Position numbers and translations under genes: made by a program. From Roseococcus sp. (GTDB lineage: Bacteria > Pseudomonadota > Alphaproteobacteria > Acetobacterales > Acetobacteraceae), in assembly GCF_019747315.1 (NCBI RefSeq), contig NZ_JAIEQY010000001.1, forward strand, positions 1 to 63,406: 63,406 nt of DNA, read 5' to 3'. This document shows positions 5,832 through 42,908 of this stretch, piece after piece. The notes below the pieces were generated by a model. The model was not told where the DNA came from. It did no database searches and was given only the letters and a program-made list of their open reading frames with translations. Every line of letters begins with the position of its first letter. The stretch's first letter is position 1.

Positions 5832-10330
<4,499 letters not shown>

Positions 10331-10359
<29 letters not shown>

Positions 10360-11878
10360 ACAGGGTCTCGACCGTGATGGTGCGGATGCCGTTCATTTCG
10401 GCGAAGCGCTCCGTGTTGCGCTTCGCCTTGCCGCGGACGAAGAAGGGGATCTTCTTGAGCTCCTTCTCGCCATCCGCGGTCCAGGTCGTCTCGGTGGGCG
10501 CGACCTCCGCCGCAACCAGCACCTCCGCCTCTTCGCGCACCGGTTCCGCCTTGGTGGCGGCATGGCCGAGGTGAGAGGCGGCGGCGTCCGGGTGAAATTC
10601 GAAATCCTCGCGGAACATCCCGATCAGATGCTCCTCCAGGCCCATCATCAGCGGATGGACCCAGGTGTCGAAGAGGACATTGGCCCCCTCGAAACCCATC
10701 TGCGGCGAGTTGCGCGCGGGGAAGTCCTGCACATGCACCGGTGCCGAAATCACCGCGCAGGGCACGCCCAGACGCTTGGCGACGTGGCGCTCCATCTGCG
10801 TGCCCAGCACCAGCTCGGGTTGGGCCGCGGCGATGGCGGCCTCGACCTCGAGGTAGTCATCGGTGATCAGCGCCTCCAACCCGTGGCGCTTCGCGGCCTC
10901 ACGCACGTCGCGCGCCTGTTCGCGGGAATAGGTGCCGAGGCCAACGACCTGGAAGCCCAGTTCCTCAGCCGCAACGCGCGCCGCTGCGACAGCATGCGTC
11001 GCGTCGCCGAAGATGAAGACCCGCTTGCCGGTGAGGTAGGTGCTGTCCACGCTGCGCGAATACCAGGGCAGGCGCGAGCTCTCTTCGGCGAGGAACTCAC
11101 TCGCATCCACGCCGGCCAGCGACGCGACTTCGGCGATGAAGTCCCGCGTGCCGCCGACGCCGATGGGGATGCAGCGCGTGAAGTTCTGGCCGAGGTTGCG
11201 CTGCATCCAGGACGCCGCCTGACCCGCGACCTCGGGGTAGAGCACCACGTTGAAATCGGCATCGCCCAGCCGCGCCAGGTCGGCGGGGCGCGCACCGAGC
11301 GGTGCCACGACATTCACCGTGACGCCAAGCCGCGCGAGCAGCCCACGCACTTCCTTGATGTCATCGCGGTGGCGGAAGCCCAGCGCCGTGGGGCCCAGGA
11401 TATTGCAGCGCGGCGCAGCGCCGGCCGGGCGCTCCATCTTCACGGCGAAGCGTCGGATCAGCTGGTAGAGCGTTTCGGCCGCGCCCCAGTTTTCCTTCTT
11501 CTGGTAGGCCGGCAACTCCACCGCGATCACCGGAATCGGCAGGCCCGAGGTGGCGGCCAAGCCGCCCGGATCATCCTGGATCAGCTCGGCCGTGCAGGAG
11601 GCGCCGACCAGCATCGCCTCGGGCTGGAAACGCTCATAGGCATCACGCACCGAGGTCTTGAACAGCTCGGCCGTGTCACCGCCGAGGTCACGGGCCTGGA
11701 AGGTCGTGTAGGTGACCGGCGGGCGCGAATTGCGCCGCTCAATCATGGTGAAGAGCAGGTCCGCGTAGGTATCGCCCTGCGGCGCATGCAGCACGTAGTG
11801 CAGGCCTTCCATGGCGGCGGCGATTCGCATCGCACCCACATGCGGCGGGCCTTCATATGTCCAGAGGGTCAGCTGCAT
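10331..11878 (-). CDS. bchB: Light-independent protochlorophyllide reductase subunit B
   Basis: BchB forms the NifK-like half of the catalytic BchNB heterotetramer. The 515 residues begin [20 protein letters not shown], a typical BchB start. An Asp at about 36 (QGDTYADLL) is expected to be the unusual oxygen ligand of the NB-cluster. The C-terminal domain includes the [20 protein letters not shown] region that is typical of BchB. It starts 4 bp after the bchN stop. Confidence 0.97.
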
Positions 11879-19608: not shown

Positions 19609-20651
19609 TGGATCTCGCAACCCCCCACCACGCCCGGGCCCGCGCCAAGCGCCACCACGGCCCGACGCTGCCCATGAAGGTCGGCACCCGCGGCTCGCCG
19701 CTGGCACTCTACCAGACGCGGCACTTCCTGGACCTGATCCGCGCCGTCTGCCCGCTTCTGCGCGAGGTCGAGGCCTTCGAGGAGCATGAGATCAGCACGG
19801 CGGGGGACCGCGTGCAGGATCGCCGCCTCGCCGAGATCGGTGGCAAGGGCCTGTTCGCCAAGGAAATCCATGAGGCTCTGCTGGATGGCCGCGTGGATTT
19901 CGCGGTGCATTCCCTGAAGGATCTGGAAACAGAGCTTCCGCCCGGCATCGTGCTGGCCTGCACGCTCCGCCGCGAGGACCCGCGCGATGCCATTGTCCTG
20001 GGCGATATCTGCCACCGCAGCGCCTTCCGCGACCGCCGCGGCTTCACCAGCGCAGCGCACCACGCAACGACCGACCCCTACGCCGCCCTGCCCAAGGGCG
20101 CCCTGATCGGCACCGCCTCGGTCCGCCGCCAGGCGCAACTGCTCTACGCCCGGCCGGACCTGCGCTGCGAGGTGATCCGCGGCAATGTGCAGACCCGGCT
20201 CTCCCGCGTCGCGACCGGGGAGTTCGATGCCTCGCTGCTGGCGCTGGCCGGGTTGAAGCGCCTGGGCCTGGAACACCATGCCGGCGTGATCCTGGATGAG
20301 GACGACATGGTGCCGGCCGCCTGCCAGGGCATCATCGGCGTCACCGTCCGGGCCGATGATGTGGAGCTGCATGAGCTGCTCTCCGCCATCTGCGACCCCT
20401 GCTCGCGCCCCGTCAGCCTCTGCGAGCGCGCCTTCCTGGGCGCGCTGGACGGCTCCTGCCGGACGCCGATCGGTGGCCACGCCACGCTGCTGGATGGTGG
20501 GCAGATTCGCCTCACGGGCCTGATCGCCCGCGCCGATGGCAGCTTCGTGCTGCGCCGGACCGTGACCGGCGATGCCTGCGATGCCGAACGGATCGGCCGC
20601 GCCCTGGGCGAGGAGATCCTGATGGAATCGCCGGCGGACGTGTTTGCCTGA
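19608..20651 (+). CDS. hemC: Divergent porphobilinogen deaminase (hydroxymethylbilane synthase)
   Basis: HemC polymerises four porphobilinogens into hydroxymethylbilane. The family core starts MKVGTRGSPLALYQTR. The catalytic Asp (VHSLKDLE) and the cysteine that holds the dipyrromethane cofactor (GSCRTPIGG) are kept. With ATG 19608, overlapping the bchP stop (TAATG), the protein has 347 residues, about 35-40 above the norm. It has 22 extra N-terminal residues and an insertion of about 20 residues after the REDPRDA motif; the usual GQGA motif reads CQGI. It is probably active, and may be a copy dedicated to bacteriochlorophyll; ATG 19674 is an alternative start. Confidence 0.9.
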   Translation: MDLATPHHARARAKRHHGPTLPMKVGTRGSPLALYQTRHFLDLIRAVCPLLREVEAFEEHEISTAGDRVQDRRLAEIGGKGLFAKEIHEALLDGRVDFAVHSLKDLETELPPGIVLACTLRREDPRDAIVLGDICHRSAFRDRRGFTSAAHHATTDPYAALPKGALIGTASVRRQAQLLYARPDLRCEVIRGNVQTRLSRVATGEFDASLLALAGLKRLGLEHHAGVILDEDDMVPAACQGIIGVTVRADDVELHELLSAICDPCSRPVSLCERAFLGALDGSCRTPIGGHATLLDGGQIRLTGLIARADGSFVLRRTVTGDACDAERIGRALGEEILMESPADVFA

Positions 20652-22140
20652 TCCCTTGTCCGGCAAGGTTCTCGTCATCGGGGCCGGCATTGCCGGCCTG
20701 ACCGCCGCGGCGATGCTGGCCGCGCGTGGCCATGACGTGACCGTGCTGGAACGCCAGGCCGCCCCCGGCGGCAAGATGCGCCACCTCGCCATCGGCGAGG
20801 CGCGGATTGATGGCGGCCCCACCGTCTTCACCATGCGCTGGGTCTTCGACGAGATCTTCGCCGCCTGCGGCACCACCCTCGCCGACCACCTGACCTTGCA
20901 GCCGGTCGAGGTGCTGGCCCGCCACGCCTGGGATGGCGCGCCCGGCCGGCTGGACCTGTTTGCCGATATCCAGCGCTCGGCCGAGGCCATCGGCGCCTTC
21001 GCCGGCCCGGCCGAGGCGCGCGGCTACCTCACCTTCGTGGCGCGGGCGAAGAAGACCTTCGCCGCACTGGAGGCGCCGTTCATCCGGGATTCCCGGCCTT
21101 CGCCCATGGCCCTGGTTGGCCGCGCGGGCATCGGCGGGATGGGCAGGCTGCTCGCCACCTCGCCCTTCACCACCCTCTGGAACGCGCTGGGCGAGCATTT
21201 CAACGACCCGCGCCTGCGCCAACTCTTTGGCCGCTACGCCACCTATGTCGGCTCCTCGCCCTTCCTGGCGCCGGCGACCCTCATGCTCATCGCCCATGTG
21301 GAGCAGGAAGGCGTCTGGCTGGTCGAAGGCGGGATGCACCGGGTGGCCCGCGCTTTCGAAGCGCTGGCGACCGCCAAGGGTGCCCGCTTCCGCTACCAGG
21401 CCGATGTCACCGAAATCCTGGTCAGGAATGGCCGCGCCGCCGGGGTGCGCCTCGCCGATGGCGAGGTCTTCGAGGCGGGCAGCATCATCTCCAATGGCGA
21501 TGTGGCAGCGCTGGCGGCCGGGCGCTTCGGCGCGGCGGCGGCCGGCGCGGTGGCCGCCGTGCCACGCGCCCGCCGCTCGCTCTCGGCCGTCACCTGGGCC
21601 ATGCATGCGCGGACCGCAGGCTTTCCGCTGGTGCGGCACAATGTCTTCTTCTCCGACAATTACACCCGCGAATTCAACGAGTTGACTGAGCAGGGCCGCC
21701 TGCCCTCCACGCCCACCGTCTATGTCTGCGCCCAGGATCGCGGCGATGACGACACGGCAATGGATGGGCCGGAACGCCTGCTTTGCCTGATCAACGCGCC
21801 GGCGCGGGGCGATTATCGTCCCCTCTCCGCCTCTGCCCTGGCCGAGGCCGAAGCCGCCACCTTCGCCCTGCTGGCGCGGGCGGGCCTCACGATCGAGCGC
21901 AGCGCCGAGACGGAGATCCTCACCACGCCCACCGGCTTTGACGCGCTGTTCCCCGCGACCGGCGGCGCGCTTTATGGCCAGGCGGTGCATGGCTGGTCCG
22001 CCACCTTCGCCCGACCAGGTACGCAGACGCAGCTGCCCGGCCTCTATGTGGCCAGCGGCAGCGCCCATCCCGGGGCGGGCGTGCCGATGGCGGCACTCTC
22101 CGGCCGCCTCGCCGCCTTGCGGGTTCTGGGGGGCGGCTGA
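20644..22140 (+). CDS. crtD: 1-hydroxycarotenoid 3,4-desaturase CrtD
   Basis: CrtD introduces the C3,4 double bond into hydroxylated acyclic carotenoids, as in the spirilloxanthin pathway. The 498-residue flavoprotein has the N-terminal FAD motif VLVIGAGIAGLTAAAMLAARG and the CrtI-type C-terminal motif LYVASGSAHPGAGVPMA. The stretch YATYVGSSPFLAPATLMLIA is characteristic of CrtD rather than CrtI. The start is uncertain: TTG 20644, overlapping hemC by 8 nt, or TTG 20656. It is the only carotenoid gene in the window. Confidence 0.9.
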   Translation: MPDPLSGKVLVIGAGIAGLTAAAMLAARGHDVTVLERQAAPGGKMRHLAIGEARIDGGPTVFTMRWVFDEIFAACGTTLADHLTLQPVEVLARHAWDGAPGRLDLFADIQRSAEAIGAFAGPAEARGYLTFVARAKKTFAALEAPFIRDSRPSPMALVGRAGIGGMGRLLATSPFTTLWNALGEHFNDPRLRQLFGRYATYVGSSPFLAPATLMLIAHVEQEGVWLVEGGMHRVARAFEALATAKGARFRYQADVTEILVRNGRAAGVRLADGEVFEAGSIISNGDVAALAAGRFGAAAAGAVAAVPRARRSLSAVTWAMHARTAGFPLVRHNVFFSDNYTREFNELTEQGRLPSTPTVYVCAQDRGDDDTAMDGPERLLCLINAPARGDYRPLSASALAEAEAATFALLARAGLTIERSAETEILTTPTGFDALFPATGGALYGQAVHGWSATFARPGTQTQLPGLYVASGSAHPGAGVPMAALSGRLAALRVLGGG

Positions 22141-22213: not shown

Positions 22214-23665
22214 ATGAATCCCACTCCCCCCCCGCCCGGCCGCCGCCCCAGGCTGCGCCAGGGCGTGCTGCATACGGATCTCTGCGTCATCGGCGCGGGC
22301 TCGGCCGGGCTTTCGCTCGCGGCGGGCGCGGTGCAGATGGGCGCCTCCGTCGTGCTGGTCGAGAAGCACCGCATGGGGGGCGATTGCCTGAACACCGGCT
22401 GCGTCCCCTCCAAGGCGCTGCTGGCCGCCGCCCACGCCGCGCAATCCGCGCGGCAGGCGGCGCGCTTCGGCGTGGACCTGCCGGAGCCCGTGGTGGATTT
22501 CGCCCGGGTGCATGCGCATGTGCATGGCGTGATCGGCGCCATCGCCCCGCATGACAGCGTGGAGCGCTTCGAGGGGCTGGGCTGCACCGTCATCCGTGCC
22601 GCCGCCCGCTTCACCGGCCCGGCCGAGATCATGGCGGGCGAGCAGCGCATCCGCGCCCGGCGCTTCGTGGTCGCCACCGGCTCGTCGGCCGCCATCCCGC
22701 CCGTGCCGGGCCTGGCCGAGACGCCGCACCTCACCAACGAGACCATCTTCAACCTGACCGAGCGTCCGGATCACCTGCTGGTTCTGGGCGGCGGTCCCAT
22801 CGGGATCGAGATGGCGCAGGCCTTTCGCGGCCTGGGCGCCGAGGTGACGGTGATCGAGCGCGGCAGCATCCTCCCGCGCGACGAGCCGGAGGCGGTGGCC
22901 CTGCTGCGGCAGATTCTGGTCCACCAGGGCATCCATCTGGTCGAGGGCGCGCAGGTGGCCCGGATCCGCCCCGGAATCGAGGTGGAACTGGCGGATGGAA
23001 CTATCCTCGCCGGCACGCATCTGCTGGTCGCCGCCGGGCGTAAACCCGGCATGGAAGGCCTGGACCTCAGCCTCGCCGGCGTGGAGACGACGCCGCGGGG
23101 CATCACCGTGGATGCGCGGCTGCGCAGCAGCAACAAGCGCGTCTTCGCGGCGGGCGATGTGGCGGGCGGGCCGCAATTCACCCATGTGGCGGGCTATCAT
23201 GCGGGCGTGCTGATCCGGAACATCCTCTTCGGCCTGCCGGCGAAGGTGGACTACACCGCCCTGCCCTGGGTCACCTACAGCGACCCGGAACTGGCCCATG
23301 TCGGCCTGACCGAGAGCGAGGCGCGCTTGGCGAACCATCCCGTCCAGGTGCTGACGCAGAAGCTGGACGGCAATGACCGCGCCCAGGCCGAGCGCAGCAC
23401 GGAGGGGCTGGCCAAGATCATCCTCGGCGCAAAGGGCCGCATCCTGGGCGCCACCATCCTGGCGCCGCGCGCGGGCGAGATGATCGGGCTCTGGGGCCTG
23501 GCCATCCAGTCGAAGATGAAGATCGGCGCGGTGGCGCAGATGATGGCGCCCTACCCGACCATGTCCGAGATCTCCAAGCGCGCGGCGGGCGGCTTCTACA
23601 CGCCCAGCCTGTTCTCGGCGCGGACGCGTTTCATCGTGGGCTGGATCCAGAGGTTGCTGCCGTGA
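22214..23665 (+). CDS. Mercuric reductase-like class-I flavoprotein disulfide oxidoreductase
   Basis: This 483-residue protein has an FAD-binding motif (DLCVIGAGSAGLSLAAGA), the redox-active pair in GGDCLNTGCVPSKALL, an NAD(P) motif (LLVLGGGPIGIEMAQAF) and a dimerisation domain. Two features set it apart from the model enzymes. The catalytic His of the C-terminal HPT motif is replaced (MMAPYPTMSEISKRAAGG), and the C-terminal cysteine pair of MerA is absent. The substrate is therefore unknown. It is the first gene of an eight-gene plus-strand operon and overlaps the next gene as GTGA. Confidence 0.85.
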   Translation: MNPTPPPPGRRPRLRQGVLHTDLCVIGAGSAGLSLAAGAVQMGASVVLVEKHRMGGDCLNTGCVPSKALLAAAHAAQSARQAARFGVDLPEPVVDFARVHAHVHGVIGAIAPHDSVERFEGLGCTVIRAAARFTGPAEIMAGEQRIRARRFVVATGSSAAIPPVPGLAETPHLTNETIFNLTERPDHLLVLGGGPIGIEMAQAFRGLGAEVTVIERGSILPRDEPEAVALLRQILVHQGIHLVEGAQVARIRPGIEVELADGTILAGTHLLVAAGRKPGMEGLDLSLAGVETTPRGITVDARLRSSNKRVFAAGDVAGGPQFTHVAGYHAGVLIRNILFGLPAKVDYTALPWVTYSDPELAHVGLTESEARLANHPVQVLTQKLDGNDRAQAERSTEGLAKIILGAKGRILGATILAPRAGEMIGLWGLAIQSKMKIGAVAQMMAPYPTMSEISKRAAGGFYTPSLFSARTRFIVGWIQRLLP

Positions 23666-24363
23666 AGCTCCTTCGGGACAAGCGGCTTTGGCTCGCCTTG
23701 GCGGTGATCGGCCTCATCCTCGCGCTGCGGGCCTCGGGGCTTGGAGCGCTGCTCTCGCTCGACACGCTGGCGCAGCACCGCGAGGCGCTGGGCGGGTTCG
23801 TCGCGCGGAACGCCTGGCTCGCGGCCGCCGCCTTCGTGCTGGTCTATGCGGCGGCCGTCGCACTTTCCGTGCCGGGGGCGATCATCCTGACGCTCGCGGG
23901 CGGCTTCCTCTTCGGCGCGGTGCTCGGCACGCTGCTGACCGTGCTGGGGGCGACGATCGGCGCCACGCTGGTCTTCCTCTTCGCGCGGACCATCTTCGGC
24001 GAGAACGCGCTGGACCGTTTCGGCGCCCCCGCCCAGCGCCTGGCCGAGGGCATTCGCCGCAATGCCGGGTCCTACCTGCTGGTGCTGCGCCTCGTGCCGC
24101 TGTTCCCTTTCTTCCTGGTCAACCTCGTGCCCGCCTTCGTGGGCGTGAAGCTGCCGGTCTATGTGCTGACCACCTTCTTCGGGATCATGCCCGGCACCTT
24201 TGTCTTCAGCCTCACCGGGGCAGGGCTTGGCTCCATCCTGGATGCGGGCGGCACGCTCGACCTCGGCTCGGTGCTGACACCGCAAATCCTGGGGGCGCTG
24301 CTGGGGCTGGCCGCGCTCTCGCTCGCCGCCATCCCCCTCAAGAAGAGGTTCGCCGCCCAATGA
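23662..24363 (+). CDS. TVP38/TMEM64 family membrane protein
   Basis: This 233-residue DedA/SNARE-associated-type integral membrane protein has an N-terminal anchor (about 7-25) and the family core with LSVPGAIILTLAGGFLFGA and re-entrant-loop segments around 60-110. It ends with a helix and the basic tail KKRFAAQ. Such proteins often stand next to MerA-like flavoproteins, as here. Proposed roles are lipid or small-solute transport; none can be assigned. Start GTG 23662 overlaps the upstream stop, and its own stop overlaps the next ATG. Confidence 0.85.
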   Translation: MKLLRDKRLWLALAVIGLILALRASGLGALLSLDTLAQHREALGGFVARNAWLAAAAFVLVYAAAVALSVPGAIILTLAGGFLFGAVLGTLLTVLGATIGATLVFLFARTIFGENALDRFGAPAQRLAEGIRRNAGSYLLVLRLVPLFPFFLVNLVPAFVGVKLPVYVLTTFFGIMPGTFVFSLTGAGLGSILDAGGTLDLGSVLTPQILGALLGLAALSLAAIPLKKRFAAQ

Positions 24364-25154
24364 TTCAGCGCCGCTCCTTGCCCTTGCTTTCCGCCGCCAT
24401 GCTGGCCCGGCCCGCCCGAGCGGCCGAGCCCGGGCTCGATGTCCTGCTCGGCCGCTACGCCAGCACCCCGGCCGATGGCGTGACGCGGGTGGATTATGCC
24501 CGCTGGAAGGCCAGCGCCGCCGACCTGGCGGCCCTCGATGCCTGGATCGCCGAAGCGGCCACGCGCCGCCCCTCCGCCATGCCGCGCAACGAGGCCTATG
24601 CCTTCTGGGCCAATCTCTACAATGCGCTGACCCTGAAGGTGGTGCTGGACCGCTATCCGGTGCGCTCCATCAAGGATATCCGCTCGACCGGCGTGGGGCT
24701 GGACCCGCGCCAATTTCTCGGCCCCTGGCGCACGCGCCTGGTCACCATCGAGGGCAACCGCATGTCCCTGGATGATATCGAGCATGGCACGATGCGCCCG
24801 ACCTTCCGCGACCCGCGGGTGCATTACGCGGTGAATTGCGCCTCCATCGGCTGCCCCAACCTGCCCCTTCGCGCCTGGCGCGCGGCGAGCCTGGAGGCGG
24901 AGCTGGACGCCGCCGCGCGCGCCTTCGTGAACCATTCGCGCGGCGCGACGGTGCTGCTGGGCGATGCCCTGCGCGTCTCCTCCATCTACAAATGGTTCCG
25001 CGAGGATTTCGGCGGCGATGATGCGGGCGTCATTGCCCATCTGCGCCGTTATGCCGCCCCGGCCCTCGCCTCGGCGCTGCGAAATGTCACCCGCGTGGCC
25101 GAAGATGCTTATGATTGGGCGCTGAACGACACCAGCCCGCCCGCCCGCGCCTGA
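24360..25154 (+). CDS. DUF547 domain protein, probably exported
   Basis: The 264-residue protein starts with a short signal-peptide-like segment (RRSLPLLSAAMLARPARAAE) and continues with the DUF547 domain. Recognisable family stretches are AYAFWANLYNALTLKVVLD, HYAVNCASIGCPNLP and SSIYKWFREDFGG. The domain is papain-like in fold predictions, with conserved Cys and His, but its activity is unknown. It is coupled by ATGA to the TVP38 gene and followed by 16 bp before the radical SAM gene. Confidence 0.83.
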   Translation: MIQRRSLPLLSAAMLARPARAAEPGLDVLLGRYASTPADGVTRVDYARWKASAADLAALDAWIAEAATRRPSAMPRNEAYAFWANLYNALTLKVVLDRYPVRSIKDIRSTGVGLDPRQFLGPWRTRLVTIEGNRMSLDDIEHGTMRPTFRDPRVHYAVNCASIGCPNLPLRAWRAASLEAELDAAARAFVNHSRGATVLLGDALRVSSIYKWFREDFGGDDAGVIAHLRRYAAPALASALRNVTRVAEDAYDWALNDTSPPARA

Positions 25155-25170
25155 ATCCGGAGTTTCGCCC

Positions 25171-26124
25171 TTGTCCATCCGCAGCCAGACCACCACGCCG
25201 CTCAACCCGGCCAAATTCCAGGACCCGGCGCTGACCCTGAAGGGCGAGCGGCGGGCGCAGGTGGGACTCGCGGCGCTCGAGACGCTCTGGTTCAACACCG
25301 GCACGCTCTGCAACATCACCTGCGCCAATTGCTACATCGAGAGCAGCCCGCGCAATGACGCGCTGGTCTATCTCTCGGCCGCCGAGGTGCGTGAATACCT
25401 CGACGAAGCGCGGGCCTTCCCGGTGCGGGAGGTGGGCTTCACCGGCGGCGAGCCCTTCATGAACCCCGACCTCGTGCCGATGCTGGAGGATGTGCTCGCG
25501 CGCGGGCTGCACGCCCTGGTGCTGACCAATGCGATGCAGCCCATGCGGCGCTATGCCGCGCCCTTGCTGGCCCTGCGCGACCGCCATGGGGTGGACCGCC
25601 TGACCATCCGCGTCAGCCTCGACCATCATGACGCCGCCATCCATGACCTGGAGCGCGGCGCCGGCAGCTTCGCCCGCACGCTGGAGGGGCTGGCCTGGCT
25701 GGCGCGCGAGGGCTTTGCCATCCACGTCGCCGGCCGCGCCGGGTTCGGCAGCGAGGAGGAGGCGGCGATGCGCGCCGGCTATGCGGCGCTTTTCGCCGCG
25801 CATGGCCTTGCGGTGGATGCGGGTGATCCGGTTGCGCTCATGCTCTTCCCCGAGATGGATGCGGGGCGCGACGTGCCGGAGATCACGGAATCCTGCTGGG
25901 GCATCCTGAAGAAATCGCCCGATGCCATGATGTGCGCTTCCTCGCGGATGGTGGTGAAGCGCAAGGGCGCGGCGCGCCCGGCGGTGCTGGCCTGCACGCT
26001 GCTCGCCTATGATGAGCGCTTCGAATTGGGCGCTACGCTCGCCGAGGCGAACCGGCCCGTCTCCTTGAACCATCCGCATTGCGCCACCTTCTGCGTGCTG
26101 GGCGGCGCCGCCTGCAGCCGATGA
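25171..26124 (+). CDS. Radical SAM protein of unknown substrate
   Basis: The 317-residue protein has the radical SAM cluster motif as CNITCANC (CxxxCxxC, about residues 47-54) and the SAM-binding GGEP motif in GFTGGEPFMNPD. Four cysteines lie in the second half: ESCWGI, ACTLL and a closing pair in HCATFCVLGGAACSR, which could bind an auxiliary cluster. No known subfamily is clear. The start is TTG 25171 with GGAG nine bases upstream. Its stop overlaps the next start (ATGA). Confidence 0.85.
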   Translation: MSIRSQTTTPLNPAKFQDPALTLKGERRAQVGLAALETLWFNTGTLCNITCANCYIESSPRNDALVYLSAAEVREYLDEARAFPVREVGFTGGEPFMNPDLVPMLEDVLARGLHALVLTNAMQPMRRYAAPLLALRDRHGVDRLTIRVSLDHHDAAIHDLERGAGSFARTLEGLAWLAREGFAIHVAGRAGFGSEEEAAMRAGYAALFAAHGLAVDAGDPVALMLFPEMDAGRDVPEITESCWGILKKSPDAMMCASSRMVVKRKGAARPAVLACTLLAYDERFELGATLAEANRPVSLNHPHCATFCVLGGAACSR

Positions 26125-26894
26125 GCCTGCAACTCGTCCCGCTGCGCGCACGGCCGGATTGCCGGCCGCTGGTCTTCGGCCCGGCGCTGCAAAGCCTCTG
26201 GCCCGAATTCATGATGCATGACGCCGTGGCCGACCTCTATTTCGACACGGCGAATCTCGACCGCTTTTTGGATTTCGCCTTCGCCATCATCGACACGGAA
26301 CGGCCGGAGACCCCGGTGGGCCGGGCCTTTTCCGTGCCCTTCCATTTCGGCGGCGACCGCACGGAATTGCCGGATTCCGGCTGGGATGGCGTCCTGCGCT
26401 GGGCGCATCAGGACTGGCTGTACGGCCGTGCGCCCAATGTGCTGAGCGCGCTCGAAATCCTGCTGATGCCGAGCCATCGCGGCGGCGGGCAATCCACGGT
26501 GATCCTGAACGCCATGCGCCGCCATGCCGCCGCGCATGGCCTGACCCGCCTCTTCGCGCCTGTCCGCCCCACTGGCAAGGCGCGCGAGCCCTTCCTGCCC
26601 ATGGCCGAATACCTGGCCCGCCGCACCGCCGATGGCTTCTCGGTGGACCCCTGGGTCCGCACGCATGAGCGCGCGGGCGGGCGCATCGTGAAGATCGCGC
26701 CGACCAGCATGGTCATCCCCGCCACGCTCGCCGAATGGCGCGGCTGGACCGGGCTGGAACTGGCGCAATCCGGCGCCGTGGCCATCGAGGGCGGGCTTTC
26801 GCCCCTGTGGGTTTCGGTCGAGCAGGACAGCGCCGTCTATGTCGAACCCAATGTCTGGATCGAGCATTCGGTCCTCCCTGGAGATGCCGCATGA
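26121..26894 (+). CDS. GNAT-like acyltransferase family protein
   Basis: The 257-residue protein has features of a GNAT-like group: a GQSTVILNAMRRHAAAHG acetyl-CoA-loop-like region, then LFAPVRPTGKAREPFLPMAEY and VYVEPNVWIEH near the C-terminus. I recognise these stretches as typical of acetyltransferase-like proteins but cannot name a substrate. The start ATG 26121 overlaps the radical SAM stop and the end overlaps phnD, both as ATGA, so it is probably made together with them. Confidence 0.65.
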   Translation: MSLQLVPLRARPDCRPLVFGPALQSLWPEFMMHDAVADLYFDTANLDRFLDFAFAIIDTERPETPVGRAFSVPFHFGGDRTELPDSGWDGVLRWAHQDWLYGRAPNVLSALEILLMPSHRGGGQSTVILNAMRRHAAAHGLTRLFAPVRPTGKAREPFLPMAEYLARRTADGFSVDPWVRTHERAGGRIVKIAPTSMVIPATLAEWRGWTGLELAQSGAVAIEGGLSPLWVSVEQDSAVYVEPNVWIEHSVLPGDAA

Positions 26895-27745
26895 TCGCCC
26901 GACGCTCGCTCCTCGCCACGCCGCTGGCGCTGCCCGGCCTCGCCACCGCGCAAACCCGGACGCCGATCCGCTTCGCCGTCGGCCCCTTCCAGCCCACCGC
27001 GGGGGATACGCGCCGCGCCTTCGAGCCCTTCTTCGCCCATCTCGCGGAGGCGCTGGGCCGGCCCTATGAGCTGACGGTCACCACGGATTGGGCCGGCATC
27101 GCGGTCGCGCTGGGCAGCGGCCAGGTGGATGCGGCCTGGATGGGCCCCTGGGGCTATGTGCTGGCGCGGGACCGCGCCCGGGCCGAGGCGCTGGCGACCG
27201 TGCTGTACAACGGGTTGCCGACCTACCATGCCATCATCCTGGGCCGCGCCGGCCTCAGCATCACCCGCTTCCCCGAGGATGCGCGCGGCCTTTCCATCTC
27301 CTTCGCCGATGCCGGCTCCACCAGCGGCTGGCTGATCCCGCATCACTGGTTCGCAACGCAGGGCATCGATCCGCGCAGCTTCTTCCGCTACCGCGACGGG
27401 GCGAGCCATGCGGCCAATGTGATTTCCGTCGCCTCGGGCCAAGTGGACCTCGCGACGGATTTCGACCGCAACTTCAATGCGATGCTGGCTTCGGGCCGCG
27501 TGCGCGCGGAGCAGGCGTAGATCGTCTGGCGCAGTGCGCCCTTGCCGAATGACGCGCTGGCCGTGCGGCATGACCTGGACGCCGCGACCAAGGCCGCCAT
27601 CAGCGCCGCCGCCATCGCCATCACGCCCGAGCAGGCGCAGCGCGTCATGCCCGCCAACTACACCGGCTGGGTCCCGGCCACGCCCGAGACCTATGCGATG
27701 ATCCAGGCGGCGGGCCGGGCGCTCGGGCGGCTGCGCCAATCGTGA
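26891..27745 (+). pseudogene. phnD: PhnD-like ABC substrate-binding protein interrupted by an in-frame amber codon
   Basis: The first 209 codons encode an exported binding protein: a signal segment (RRSLLATPLALPGLATAQ), then family motifs such as SGQVDAAWMGPWGYVLARD. TAG at 27518-27520 then stops the frame. The same frame continues directly as IVWRSAPLPNDALAVRHDL and runs 74 codons to TGA 27745, exactly the expected PhnD C-terminal lobe (total about 284 codons). No shift is needed to join the parts. It may be a recent nonsense mutation, a sequencing error or readthrough. The phosphonate/phosphate-like ligand is inferred from the family. Neighbouring genes overlap both ends. Confidence 0.85.
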
Positions 27746-28494
27746 GGCTTGGCCGGGCTTTCGTATGGGCGGGCTTCCTGGCGTTGATGGCCGCCTCGCT
27801 CTGGGTGGTGGCGCCGGATCCCGCGCGGCTTGCCTCCGGCCTGCCGCGCCTCATGGGCTGGCTCGCTGGCGCCTGGCCACCGGATTTCTCGGGGGGCGAT
27901 GACATCGCCCGCCGCGCGGCGGAGACGGTGGGCATCGCCACCCTTGGCACCGTCGCCGCCGGGCTGATCGGCCTGCCGCTGGCCTTGATGGCGACGCGCC
28001 AGGTGACGCCCAGCGCCGCGCTCTACCACCCGCTGCGCAGCGTGCTGGATGCGCTGCGCGGGGTGGATGGCTTCGTCTTCGCTCTGCTGTTTGTCGCCGC
28101 CGTGGGGCTTGGCCCCTTCGCGGGCATGCTGGGCGTGGCGCTGCATTCGGCGGGCTCGCTCGCCAAGCTCTGGTCCGAGGCGATGGAGAATGCCGACCCC
28201 CGCCCCTCCGAAGCCGTGCTGGCGGTCGGCGGCACGCGGCTGCATGTGGCGCTCTGCGCCCTGCTGCCGCAGACCCTGCCGCAGAATCTCGGCAGTCTGC
28301 TCTATGTGTGGGAGGCGAATATCCGCGCCTCCACCGTGCTCGGCCTAGTGGGGGCGGGCGGGCTTGGGCAGGAGTTGAAGAACGCGGTGGACCTGCTGGA
28401 TTTCAACCGGGTGCTGGCCATCCTCATCGTCATCATCGCCCTCACCCTCACGGCCGACCGGATCAGCGGCGGGTTGCGGAGAAGCCTCACATGA
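27742..28494 (+). CDS. phnE: PhnE-like ABC transporter permease
   Basis: This 250-residue permease has about six hydrophobic segments and the PhnE cytoplasmic loop STVLGLVGAGGLGQELKNAV that contacts the ATPase. It would move the ligand of the PhnD-like protein. Start GTG 27742 overlaps the stop of the interrupted phnD (GTGA), so coupling depends on ribosomes reaching that stop. No PhnC ATPase is encoded in the operon or elsewhere in the window. Confidence 0.88.
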   Translation: MRLGRAFVWAGFLALMAASLWVVAPDPARLASGLPRLMGWLAGAWPPDFSGGDDIARRAAETVGIATLGTVAAGLIGLPLALMATRQVTPSAALYHPLRSVLDALRGVDGFVFALLFVAAVGLGPFAGMLGVALHSAGSLAKLWSEAMENADPRPSEAVLAVGGTRLHVALCALLPQTLPQNLGSLLYVWEANIRASTVLGLVGAGGLGQELKNAVDLLDFNRVLAILIVIIALTLTADRISGGLRRSLT

Positions 28495-29327
28495 TTCCGC
28501 TCATCCGCCTCGATGCGCCGATGCTGGTCTTTGGCGGCCCCTATTCCAATCGGCAGGCGACCGAGGCCGTTCTGGCCGAGGCCGTGCTGCGCGGCATCAC
28601 GGGGGACCGCATCCTCTGCACCGGCGATGTGGTCGCCTATGCCGCCGATGCCGCCGCCTGCTGCGAGCTGATGATGGCGAGCGGCGCGCTCGTGCTGATG
28701 GGCAATTGCGAGGAGAACCTGGCCGCCGAGAGCAAGGATTGCGGCTGCGGCTTCGAGGAGAACACGGCCTGTGACCTGCTCTCCCGCGCCTGGTATGCGC
28801 ACGCCAACCGCCAGGTCAGCCCGCGCCACCGCGCCTGGATGGGCGGGCTGCCGCGCCAGCTGCACCTGGAATTGCCGGACCGCCGGCGGTTGGCGGTGGT
28901 GCATGGCGGCGCGAGTGAGATCAGCCGCTTCCTCTTCGCCTCCACGCCCGAGCCGGTGCTGCGGGAGGAACTGGCCGAGACCGCCTGCCAGGGCGTGATC
29001 GCCGGGCATTGCGGCATTCCCTTCGCCCGGCGTCTGGAGGGGGGCGGGCTCTGGCTCAATGCCGGGGCGGTGGGCATGCCGGCGAATGACGGCACGCCAC
29101 GCGCCTGGTTTACGCTGCTGACGCCGGCCGCGCGCAGCCTGACGGTGGAGATCCTGCCGCTGGAATACGACCACCGCGCGGCCGCGGCCGCCATGCGCGC
29201 GGCTGGACTGCCGGAGGGCTATGCTTCAGGCCTGGAAACCGGCCTCTGGCCCTCCTGCGATGTGTTGCCGAGCGTGGAACTGGCCGCCCGCGCCCGTGCG
29301 CTGCCCCCTGTCCGGATGGTCTGGTAG
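28491..29327 (+). CDS. Metallophosphoesterase-like protein
   Basis: The 278-residue protein resembles YfcE-type calcineurin-like phosphoesterases: GDVVAYAADAAACCELM, MGNCEENLA, VVHGGASE and VIAGHCGIPF are motifs II-V. Motif I, normally DxHGN, reads FGGPYSN, without the Asp and His metal ligands, so catalysis may differ. A short cysteine-rich stretch (SKDCGCGFEENTACD) follows motif III. It is the last gene of the operon, coupled to phnE by ATGA. The substrate is unknown. Confidence 0.8.
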   Translation: MIPLIRLDAPMLVFGGPYSNRQATEAVLAEAVLRGITGDRILCTGDVVAYAADAAACCELMMASGALVLMGNCEENLAAESKDCGCGFEENTACDLLSRAWYAHANRQVSPRHRAWMGGLPRQLHLELPDRRRLAVVHGGASEISRFLFASTPEPVLREELAETACQGVIAGHCGIPFARRLEGGGLWLNAGAVGMPANDGTPRAWFTLLTPAARSLTVEILPLEYDHRAAAAAMRAAGLPEGYASGLETGLWPSCDVLPSVELAARARALPPVRMVW

Positions 29328-40963: not shown

Positions 40964-41935
40964 ATGATCCAGCGTCGCGCGGCCCTCGCCGCCCCATTCA
41001 TCCTCGCCGCCGCTTCAGCCTCGGCGCAGGCGCCCTGGCCCAACCGTTCCGTGCGCGTGGTGGTGCCCTGGCCGCCCGGCCAGGCGACCGACCTCGCCGC
41101 CCGCATCACCGCCCAGCGCCTGACCGAGACGCTCGGCCAGCCCTTCGTGGCCGAGAACCGCGCGGGTGCGGGCGGCATGATCGGCACCGACCAGGTGGCG
41201 AAGGCCGCCCCCGATGGCTACACGCTGCTGGCCGGCTCCACTGGGCCCATCGTGACCTCGCCGCTCGTGCAGCGCACCGCCTACAATGCCGAGCGCGACT
41301 TCGCGCCCATCTCCATCACCGGCATGTCGCCCTATCTGCTGGTGGTGCCGCCGAACTTCCCGGCCCGCACGGCCGAGGAATTCGTGGCCCTGCTGCGCGC
41401 CCGCCCGGGGCATTACAGCTTCTCCTCCTCCGGGACCGGCGCCACGGCGCATGTGGTGGCCGCGTGGTTCCACGCGCTTGCCAATGTCGATGTGGTGCAT
41501 GTGCCCTTCGCCGGCAGCGGCCCCGCGCTGACCGCGGTGGTGGGCGGCCATGTGAACTACTCGGTCGAGACGCTGGCCGCGACCGGCCCGCTCATCCGCA
41601 ATGGCAGCCTGCGGGCGCTTGGCATCTCCTTCAAGGCGGGCTCCACCCTGGTGCCGGACGTGCCGCCGCTGGCGCGCCTGCCGGGCATGCAGGATTACGA
41701 CGCCGGCGCCTGGATCGGCCTAATGGCGCCGGCCGGCACGCCGCGCCCGATCATTGATCGCATCGACGCCGAGATCGGCCGCGCCATGCAGGCCGGCGAC
41801 ATGCGCGAGCGCCTGATCACCGCGGGTCTCGAGCCGGTCTATCACGGCCCGGATGGGATGCTTGAATACATCGCCAACCAGCGCCGCGGCTTCGCCACCG
41901 CCATCCGCGCCGCCAATATCCGCATCGAGGGTTGA
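40964..41935 (+). CDS. Bug/TctC-family periplasmic binding protein (copy B)
   Basis: This 323-residue protein has a signal peptide (RRAALAAPFILAAASASAQ) and the core NRSVRVVVPWPPGQATDLAA, SFSSSGTGATAHVVAAWFHA and GAWIGLMAPAGTP. The ligand is unknown. It stands one base from a near-identical-length paralogue, and no TctAB membrane components accompany it. Confidence 0.88.
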   Translation: MIQRRAALAAPFILAAASASAQAPWPNRSVRVVVPWPPGQATDLAARITAQRLTETLGQPFVAENRAGAGGMIGTDQVAKAAPDGYTLLAGSTGPIVTSPLVQRTAYNAERDFAPISITGMSPYLLVVPPNFPARTAEEFVALLRARPGHYSFSSSGTGATAHVVAAWFHALANVDVVHVPFAGSGPALTAVVGGHVNYSVETLAATGPLIRNGSLRALGISFKAGSTLVPDVPPLARLPGMQDYDAGAWIGLMAPAGTPRPIIDRIDAEIGRAMQAGDMRERLITAGLEPVYHGPDGMLEYIANQRRGFATAIRAANIRIEG

Positions 41936-41936
41936 G

Positions 41937-42908
41937 ATGATCCTGCGCCGCGGCCTGCTGGCCACGCCTTTCATCCTGGGTGCGACGGGCGCTTCCGCGC
42001 AGGCCACCTATCCCAACCGTCCGGTCCGCGTGATCATCCCCTGGCCGCCCGGCCAGGCGACCGACCTCGCCGCCCGCGTCATGGCGCAGCGCCTGACGGA
42101 AACGCTGGGCCAGCCCTTCGTGGCCGAGAACCGCGCGGGCGCGGGTGGGATGATCGGCACGGACCAGGTGGCGAAGGCCACGCCCGATGGCTACACGCTG
42201 CTCGCGGCCTCGACCGGGCCCATCGTCACCTCGCCGCTCGTGCAGCGCACGCCTTTCAATGCCGAGCGGGACTTCGCGCCCATCGCCATCACGGGCATCG
42301 CGCCGCTCGTGCTCGTCGTGCCGCCGAACTTTCCCGCGCAGACGGCGGCCGAGTTCATCGCCCTGCTGAAGGCCAATCCGGGGCGCTACACCTTCTCCTC
42401 CTCCGGCACTGGAGCAACCGCGCATATCATCGCCTCCTGGTTCCATGCGCTGGCGGGTGTGGATGTCGTGCATGTGCCCTTCGCCGGCAGCGCGCCGGCG
42501 CTGACGGCCGTGATGGGCGGGCATGTGAACTATTCGATCGAGACGGTGGCCGCGGCCGGGGCCGCCATGCGCAACGGGCAGCTCCGCGCGCTCGGCATCT
42601 CCTTCCGCAATGGTTCCTCGCTGGCGCCGGGCGTGCCGCCGCTGGCCGCCCTGCCCGGCCTCTCCGCCTTCGATGGCGGCGCCTGGATCGGCCTGATGGC
42701 GCCCGCCGGCACGCCCGCCAGCGTGATCGAGCGCATTGACGGCGAGGTGGGCCGCGCCATGCAACTGCCCGAGATCCGTGAGCGCGTGGCCGCCTCGGGC
42801 CTCGAGCCCGACTACCGCAACGCCAGCGCCATGGCGACCTACATCACCACCCAGCGCGCCGCCTTCGCCGAGGCGATCCGCGTCGCGAATATCCGCATCG
42901 AGGGCTGA
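41937..42908 (+). CDS. Bug/TctC-family periplasmic binding protein (copy C)
   Basis: This 323-residue paralogue of the preceding gene shares long stretches with it (for example PWPPGQATDLAAR, FVAENRAGAGGMIGTDQVAK, LRALGISF), pointing to a fairly recent tandem duplication. It has its own signal peptide (RRGLLATPFILGATGASAQ). The start ATG 41937 lies one base past the upstream stop, so both come from one message. Confidence 0.88.
   Translation: MILRRGLLATPFILGATGASAQATYPNRPVRVIIPWPPGQATDLAARVMAQRLTETLGQPFVAENRAGAGGMIGTDQVAKATPDGYTLLAASTGPIVTSPLVQRTPFNAERDFAPIAITGIAPLVLVVPPNFPAQTAAEFIALLKANPGRYTFSSSGTGATAHIIASWFHALAGVDVVHVPFAGSAPALTAVMGGHVNYSIETVAAAGAAMRNGQLRALGISFRNGSSLAPGVPPLAALPGLSAFDGGAWIGLMAPAGTPASVIERIDGEVGRAMQLPEIRERVAASGLEPDYRNASAMATYITTQRAAFAEAIRVANIRIEG

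Follow-up and report, generated by a model that had tools for sequence, protein, structure and literature searches.

The window analysed here, a stretch of 63,406 nucleotides from Roseococcus sp. (Alphaproteobacteria, Acetobacteraceae; assembly GCF_019747315.1, contig NZ_JAIEQY010000001.1, positions 1 to 63,406), carries at 22214-29327 on the + strand eight packed open reading frames (ORFs), named A to H here. In this order they encode a flavin adenine dinucleotide (FAD) disulfide oxidoreductase, a TVP38 protein, a DUF547 protein, a radical S-adenosylmethionine (SAM) protein, a GNAT-like protein, a PhnD-type binding protein, a PhnE-type permease and a metallophosphoesterase-like protein. We suggest, at odds that we regard as about even, that this operon represents a variant of the ArsS-type organometalloid ("arsenosugar biosynthesis") gene set, in which the radical SAM protein D stands in for ArsS, the enzyme that adenosylates arsenic according to PMC12159101. 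The initial annotation had spoken of an undescribed system; the region is more aptly called a variant, so far undescribed, of the ArsS-type set. Nothing was found in the open PMC literature on this combination of genes.

It is the company of D that points to ArsS. We compared 21 ArsS loci, 20 of them chosen for spread from 102 genomes, the remaining one being that of genome G014 (locus L160), where a true ArsS (446 bits, cutoff 300) is found in the place of D, together with TIGR04282, a TVP38-MerA fusion, an MTAP-like phosphorylase, TIGR04283, an H homolog on the other strand, an HtxB-like PhnD, PhnE and a PhnC-like ATPase. Over all 21 loci A occurs in 8, TIGR04282 and TIGR04283 in 4 each, and ArsM, MTAP, DUF547 and B (fusion excluded) in 2 each. 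Similar genes surround distant D homologs of 33-40% identity, for which five loci were taken, L157 of genome G116 and L229-L232 of other Pseudomonadota (four of five distant genomes, G270 being left out): within 6 kb there are ArsM-like genes, TIGR04282 and A in three loci each, TIGR04283 and H in two each, and MTAP and DUF547 in one each. The partners shared with the ArsS set are thus TVP38/MerA-like proteins, TIGR04282, TIGR04283 and DUF547, with MTAP or ArsM in some loci, and the part common to both sets is mainly A, with or without B, and the two transferases. D and true ArsS were not met in the same genome, either among 142 genomes (41 with D, 1 with ArsS) or among 249 (17 with D, 102 with ArsS).

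Like ArsS (TIGR04167), D joins a radical SAM core to a Cys-rich C-terminal part, and the profiles of the two families align with a probability of 98.9% (E 2e-17), over a stretch that runs from ahead of the CxxxCxxC motif to a C-terminal MC motif. They differ in that D scores 60.4 bits to the ArsS family, whose cutoff is 300, and has no Pfam match to DUF3641 (PF12345), for which the G014 ArsS scores 185 bits, the Cys order MC...C...H..C..C...C of D being similar by eye; besides, no ArsM was found in the genome of the window. An alignment of 37 D orthologs (36 of 80 loci and the window) has as invariant residues C47, C51 and C54 of CxxxCxxC and, in the C-terminal part, C242, C255, C275, C304 and C308, which with the nearly invariant C315 make six conserved C-terminal Cys. 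D passes no NCBIfam cutoff, its best match being the Rv1681 radical SAM family (98 bits, far below the cutoff of 380), followed by ArsS, the rest scoring lower, so that its assignment to any named NCBIfam family was rejected. The initial annotation would have given up the idea of a single system had D matched a family of known substrate, and none of the named NCBIfam families was matched over its cutoff. The abstract openings of the surveyed papers gave no function for the Rv1681 family; the G014 counterpart of F, a PhnD-like protein, weakly matches an Rv1680 family resembling substrate-binding proteins, and judging by their locus numbers Rv1680 and Rv1681 would be adjacent. The AlphaFold2 (AF2) model of D, one run as for H below, has a mean predicted local distance difference test score (pLDDT) of 83.7, with low confidence at residues 46-61 around the CxxxCxxC loop and at both ends. 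Its best fold matches in PDB are BlsE, SkfB and SuiB, radical SAM enzymes whose C-terminal domains are rich in Cys. The closest relatives of D among the matches listed come from Roseococcus and from metagenome-assembled genomes (MAGs) of Acetobacteraceae. A complete genome of 1.2 Mb (G098) also retains D (L156, about 7766-8665, 47% identity), and has an H homolog elsewhere.

The link of D to TIGR04283, the "arsenosugar" glycosyltransferase family, was followed across the class. In a sample of 142 alphaproteobacterial genomes, nearly one per family, D was found in 41 (E<=1e-20), H in 13, TIGR04283 in 56 and ArsS over its cutoff in one, G014; the Fisher p-values given here ignore phylogeny, and thresholds vary between searches. 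TIGR04283 is present in 40 of the 41 D genomes and in 16 of the 101 without D (p 4e-21), which is the strongest link of D, and the genome of the window has it as well (C345:10751-11377, 197 bits, cutoff 182). The control gene PhaC, present in 84 genomes, is only modestly associated with D (32 of the 41 genomes with D, 52 of the 101 without, p 0.004), and the link of D to TIGR04283 holds both within PhaC-positive (p 4e-12) and within PhaC-negative genomes (p 7e-8). Genomes with H have D in 11 of 13 cases (p 2e-5; within PhaC-positive genomes p 2e-4) and TIGR04283 in all 13. ArsM (NF008823, E<=1e-40) occurs in 6 of the 41 D genomes and in 3 of the 101 others. Of 41 D loci from 40 of these genomes, five have H and four have TIGR04282 or TIGR04283 at a distance of up to 6 kb from D.

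Concerning the operon itself, the eight genes of the initial annotation were all recovered at the same span, on the + strand, and its account of the junctions holds: six are overlaps of 4 nt and one is a gap of 16 bp. The overlaps are A/B 23662-23665, B/C 24360-24363, D/E 26121-26124, E/F 26891-26894, F/G 27742-27745 and G/H 28491-28494, the one between F and G depending on reading the phnD gene through an in-frame TAG to 27745; the sole gapped junction is C/D (25155-25170), after which D starts with TTG at 25171. Of the families proposed there, those of A, B, C, D, F and G were supported by Pfam or NCBIfam, E has a weak GNAT match, and H falls just under the Metallophos cutoff, its fold being supported. 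In line with that annotation, family scans of the eight proteins gave neither an ABC (ATP-binding cassette) ATPase nor a C-P lyase. The window is contig C405 of a genome (G000) assembled in 407 contigs, 97% complete and with 6.5% contamination. Coordinates are given in Table 1.

Table 1. Genes of the operon and the internal stop codon of F (window coordinates)
Feature	Position	Strand	Basis or remark
A, MerA/lipoamide-dehydrogenase-like FAD disulfide oxidoreductase, 483 aa	22214..23665	+	Pyr_redox_2 and Pyr_redox_dim
B, TVP38/VTT membrane protein, 233 aa	23662..24363	+	PF09335, 70.9 bits
C, DUF547 protein, 264 aa	24360..25154	+	PF04784, 86 bits
D, radical SAM protein, 317 aa, TTG start	25171..26124	+	PF04055, 60 bits; CxxxCxxC
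E, GNAT-like protein, weakly supported, lineage-restricted, 257 aa	26121..26894	+	PF00583, CurA GNAT
F, HtxB-like (PhnD family) substrate-binding protein gene, 284 codons	26891..27745	+	Phosphonate-bd, 187 bits when read through
In-frame TAG inside F, codon 210 of 284	27518..27520	+	sequence; omitted in the initial annotation
G, PhnE-type permease, 250 aa	27742..28494	+	TIGR01097, 242 bits, cutoff 216.7
H, calcineurin-fold protein without motif I, 278 aa	28491..29327	+	GGPYSN at the D-x-H site; conserved DCGCGF

D has at least 567 relatives; to see which of these genes keep company we mapped the loci of the best 80, a sample in which Acetobacteraceae predominate and several stretches end at contig ends; ORFs were called in it with a home-made gene caller, some starts were missed, and in four of the 80 loci no D was predicted. 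The full order A-B-C-D-E-F-G-H recurs in L004 and L007, and without E in L005 and L008. The F/G distance was measured as +121 in L004, where the gene caller began G late, and the C/D gap is 18 in L007. The recurrence of this order and of these overlaps in relatives, complete in L004 and L007, is more than chance would give. In Roseomonas MAGs (L019, L021, L022, L029) A-B-C is followed by three other genes and then by D-F-G-ATPase-H; at L019:7193-9892 the interval from the DUF547 gene to D holds genes for a rhodanese-like protein and a 421-aa protein and a glycosyltransferase-like gene. D-F-G-ATPase-H alone is found in L024, L039 and L056, and D-F-G-H in L042. In Methylopila (L077) a row PhnD-PhnE-ATPase-TIGR04283-TIGR04282, with both TIGR families over cutoff, diverges from an H-D fusion. 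Within 6 kb of D we counted A in 16 of the 80 loci, B in 17, C in 13, F and G in 13 each, H in 16, and TIGR04282 and TIGR04283 in 8 each. The eight genes are therefore found together in a number of relatives, though in the majority they are not, and to speak of a single system of eight genes is too strict: E occurs in 3 of the 80 loci, one of them partial, and 54 show none of A, B, C, F, G and H on the stretch available. An obligate eight-gene unit is rejected by this mapping.

H scores 20.6 bits to Metallophos, just below the cutoff of 21.5, and its AF2 model (pLDDT 91.6) has a calcineurin-like fold matching the Ap4A (diadenosine tetraphosphate) hydrolase SapH/Spr1479 and the metallophosphoesterase 3rqz (Z about 25, root-mean-square deviation 2.4-2.8 over 214-245 aligned residues), along with related folds. 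From SapH and 3rqz it differs in three respects: D-x-H of motif I is lost, GHxH is without its second His, and a DCGCGF...C motif is added. In an alignment of 28 sequences each of the 27 readable rows has GGxY[SG]N at motif I where D-x-H would stand; Gly or Cys replaces the second His of GHxH in the printed rows, and Cys84 and Cys86 of DCGCGF are invariant in all 28. A further alignment took in the window and 13 of the 16 loci with H nearby, leaving out L022, L056 and L074, the second for an internal stop. This last gene, from Pseudoroseomonas vastitatis (L056:13276-14097), has the stop inside the matched stretch. Judging by sequence and model, H would keep the fold and lose the usual metal site, and the phosphatase step that the initial annotation had drawn from it is doubtful, as none of the 27 readable homologs has the D-x-H metal motif; an ordinary phosphatase was set aside on the loss of motif I. 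H and D form a single ORF of 570-607 aa in 3 of the 80 loci (L074, L077 and L081, from Hyphomicrobiales or Methylopila), and a 616-aa ORF at L134 in the class sample is probably another such fusion. We consider H to be probably a metalloid- or substrate-binding partner and not an ordinary phosphatase.

For the importer genes, the best PDB match of F is HtxB (5me4; E 1e-78 over 259 residues, ungapped), which is specific for hypophosphite according to PMC5700983. In HtxB numbering the pocket of F is W52, W68, S128, T129, S130, H158, F176, R178 and D206; F and all 14 of its homologs, including the one beside the true ArsS, have Ser, His and Phe/Tyr at 128, 158 and 176 and keep W52, R178 and D206. 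Such residues (N128S, F158H, M176F/Y, W52, R178, D206) define the "HtxB-like" subfamily, to which F thus belongs by its pocket, its reading frame being not intact. PMC6629693 describes this subfamily, Methylopila included, as having N128S, F158H and M176Y/F and a larger pocket, and models its members as likely phosphite acceptors. Compared with the HtxBCDE hypophosphite transporter, F shares the W52 cap and the R178-D206 pair and carries the three subfamily substitutions, while the operon has no recognised HtxA, PtxD or C-P lyase among its eight genes, has companions of the ArsS type and no ATPase, and its F gene is interrupted.

The TAG in F, which was also flagged independently in a separate search, stands where all 14 homologs found at E<=1e-30 in the loci examined have a sense codon, and because of this it appears to be particular to this genome, as a recent nonsense mutation, or else an assembly error. 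An ABC ATPase to go with the binding protein and the permease was not found by family scans in the operon of the window; the window, L004, L005, L007, L008 and L042 all lack one between G and H. An ATPase adjoins PhnE in eight loci (L019, L021, L022, L024, L029, L039, L056 and L077), and the two that were scanned, of L039 and L077, have PhnC as best match (192 and 250 bits, below the cutoff of 266). From the TAG and the lack of an ATPase in the operon, the importer of this one genome is probably impaired. Elsewhere the genome has a PhnC over cutoff, on contig C403, in a separate PhnC/PhnD/PhnE locus (L158, G000:C403:18000-34000, at 7745-11119) that is followed by a PtxD-like protein (2e-112 to phosphite dehydrogenase, over no NCBIfam cutoff). 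A phosphite role of F and G is therefore probably redundant, and F/G as the phosphite system of this organism were set aside.

A stays below the cutoffs of its NCBIfam matches (NF004991 447 bits, cutoff 620; MerA 364, cutoff 454); its homologs are fused to TVP38 in the ArsS locus L160 and lie near distant D homologs. Homologs of C occur in the ArsS loci L212 and L214 and in the distant-D locus L229. E scores 16.3 bits to Acetyltransf_1 (PF00583), under the gathering cutoff of 20.7, has the CurA GNAT domain 2ree as best PDB match (E 0.0012), and its homologs among the 80 loci are those of L004 and L007 and a partial one in L006. Upstream, crtD (1-hydroxycarotenoid 3,4-desaturase, 20644-22140; NF045637 679 bits, cutoff 580) ends 73 bases before the operon, and the genes to its left resemble what we take to be a photosynthesis gene cluster. 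Downstream there is a tandem pair of similar genes (40964-42908), of 323 aa each and from the same cluster.

Putting these elements together, the uptake of a phosphorus or arsenic oxyanion combined with a radical enzyme, as supposed in the initial annotation, gains from the HtxB-like nature of F and from the ArsS-set partners of D, but the single eight-gene system is too strict and the phosphatase step doubtful. We propose that F and the permease G would import a small acid of R2XO2- or RXO3-type, with an ATPase supplied from elsewhere in the genome, the likeliest cargo being an acid of methylated arsenic or the analogous phosphorus compound. A methylated arsenic acid, which may be the cargo, shares its overall shape with a phosphinate or phosphonate. 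The MerA-like A and the membrane protein B may provide thiol/redox chemistry bringing the element to a reduced state; D, with H as a partner, could then add a SAM-derived carbon radical to it, as ArsS does, and the TIGR04283 protein encoded elsewhere in the genome may glycosylate the product. The element handled and an adenosylation by D are likewise deduced from the genes. If the product is an organoarsenical, then without ArsM methylated arsenic would have to be taken up, which would be the reason for an HtxB-like importer; otherwise phosphorus becomes more likely. A simple arsenic-resistance operon and a C-P lyase or phosphonate catabolism pathway were both set aside, no such families being among the eight proteins.

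A number of observations weigh against an ArsS-type variant. H, F, G and the ATPase accompany ArsS in one of the 21 loci, L160, and in none of the other 20; of the 16 TIGR04283 genomes without D, G014 alone has ArsS, and so TIGR04283 requires neither of the two. These results weakened the proposal and slightly raised two of its rivals. The profile alignment of D with ArsS ends before the last Cys motifs, and, since the Rv1681 family outscores ArsS as a match for D (98 against 60 bits), it reflects radical SAM kinship, not specifically ArsS kinship. The mutual exclusivity of D and ArsS could be plain lineage, and "arsenosugar" in two of the TIGR names is annotation. An ArsM-like query from a distant D locus (E<=1e-15) found matches in 11 of the 41 D genomes and in 4 of the 101 others; neither this search nor that at E<=1e-40 gave an ArsM match in the genome of the window, and likewise neither did in G014, in spite of its true ArsS. 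TIGR04282 is absent within 17 kb around the TIGR04283 gene of this genome, TIGR04282 and MTAP having not been sought genome-wide. The D-H link is not significant in PhaC-negative genomes (p 0.29, two H genomes), and the importer looks impaired here.

That neither search found an ArsM here, or in G014 with its true ArsS and similar importer, would suit a phosphorus version of the same scheme, in which F and G import phosphite, hypophosphite or a small phosphonate or phosphinate and D forms a C-P bond, the product going to the same glycosyltransferases. The closeness of F to HtxB and its three pocket changes (Ser, His, Phe/Tyr), typical of the subfamily modelled in PMC6629693 as likely to accept phosphite, speak in its favour. 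We nevertheless regard it as unlikely, since phosphite is probably already served here by the separate PhnC/D/E and PtxD-like locus, the eight genes include no recognised PtxD, HtxA or C-P lyase, and the partners resemble those of ArsS, three of the five distant D loci having ArsM-like genes. Selenium or another element, with D and TIGR04282/TIGR04283 making a seleno- or thio-metabolite, seems very improbable. In its favour, TIGR04167 (ArsS) is counted among selenoprotein families in PMC9312934 and PMC13188914, and F weakly matches a "putative selenate" substrate-binding protein family, but at 83 bits, far below the cutoff of 250, and HtxB is much closer.

It would also be logical to ask whether D belongs to this set at all. 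It may be a free-standing enzyme of general metabolism which works with TIGR04283/TIGR04282 and not with the importer, F-G-H and A-B-C being a separate cassette joined to it in few lineages, with the importer decaying here. Several counts that tell against an ArsS-type operon favour this: D is found in 41 of the 142 class genomes and a close F homolog in 2; 54 of the 80 best loci lack A, B, C, F, G and H on the available stretch, F/G being near D in 13 only, and a recQ-type gene (one member of the cluster named) is near D in 27, D often standing before recQ in Acetobacteraceae; downstream of D in the 41 class loci ApaG was counted in 21, O-succinylhomoserine sulfhydrylase in 18 and FolE in 16, again with one member of each cluster named. 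In the class loci L118-L157 D is often followed by genes of the O-succinylhomoserine sulfhydrylase, ApaG, FolE and TrkH type. The TAG in F and the missing ATPase would fit as well. Against it, H is tied to D by fusions in three loci and by co-occurrence (11 of 13 H genomes), and F-G-H adjoins D in several genera and ArsS in G014, so that we hold a free-standing D to be quite unlikely.

Returning to the proposal of an ArsS-type variant, we may even suggest, tentatively and with considerably more doubt than the proposal itself, that D is the founder of a second, unrecognised radical SAM family forming carbon-metalloid bonds, which replaces ArsS and is spread over many Alphaproteobacteria; the pseudo-phosphoesterase H, bound to D, would hold the substrate by its Cys motif, and HtxB-like importers would, in some lineages, feed in methylated arsenic (or phosphinic) acid that is scavenged from neighbouring organisms and not produced by an ArsM of the cell itself. 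Whatever the element, a radical SAM family with members in 41 of the 142 alphaproteobacterial genomes sampled gains a pathway context and testable substrates, and the HtxB-like binding proteins, for which PMC6629693 gives a modelled cargo only, are now tied to an organometalloid gene set. A pseudo-phosphoesterase that is fused to a radical SAM enzyme is a probable catalytic partner of it. If the element is arsenic, organoarsenicals would have in these Alphaproteobacteria a source so far overlooked, perhaps through scavenging of methylated arsenic, and if it is phosphorus, the operon would represent a new radical route to C-P compounds.

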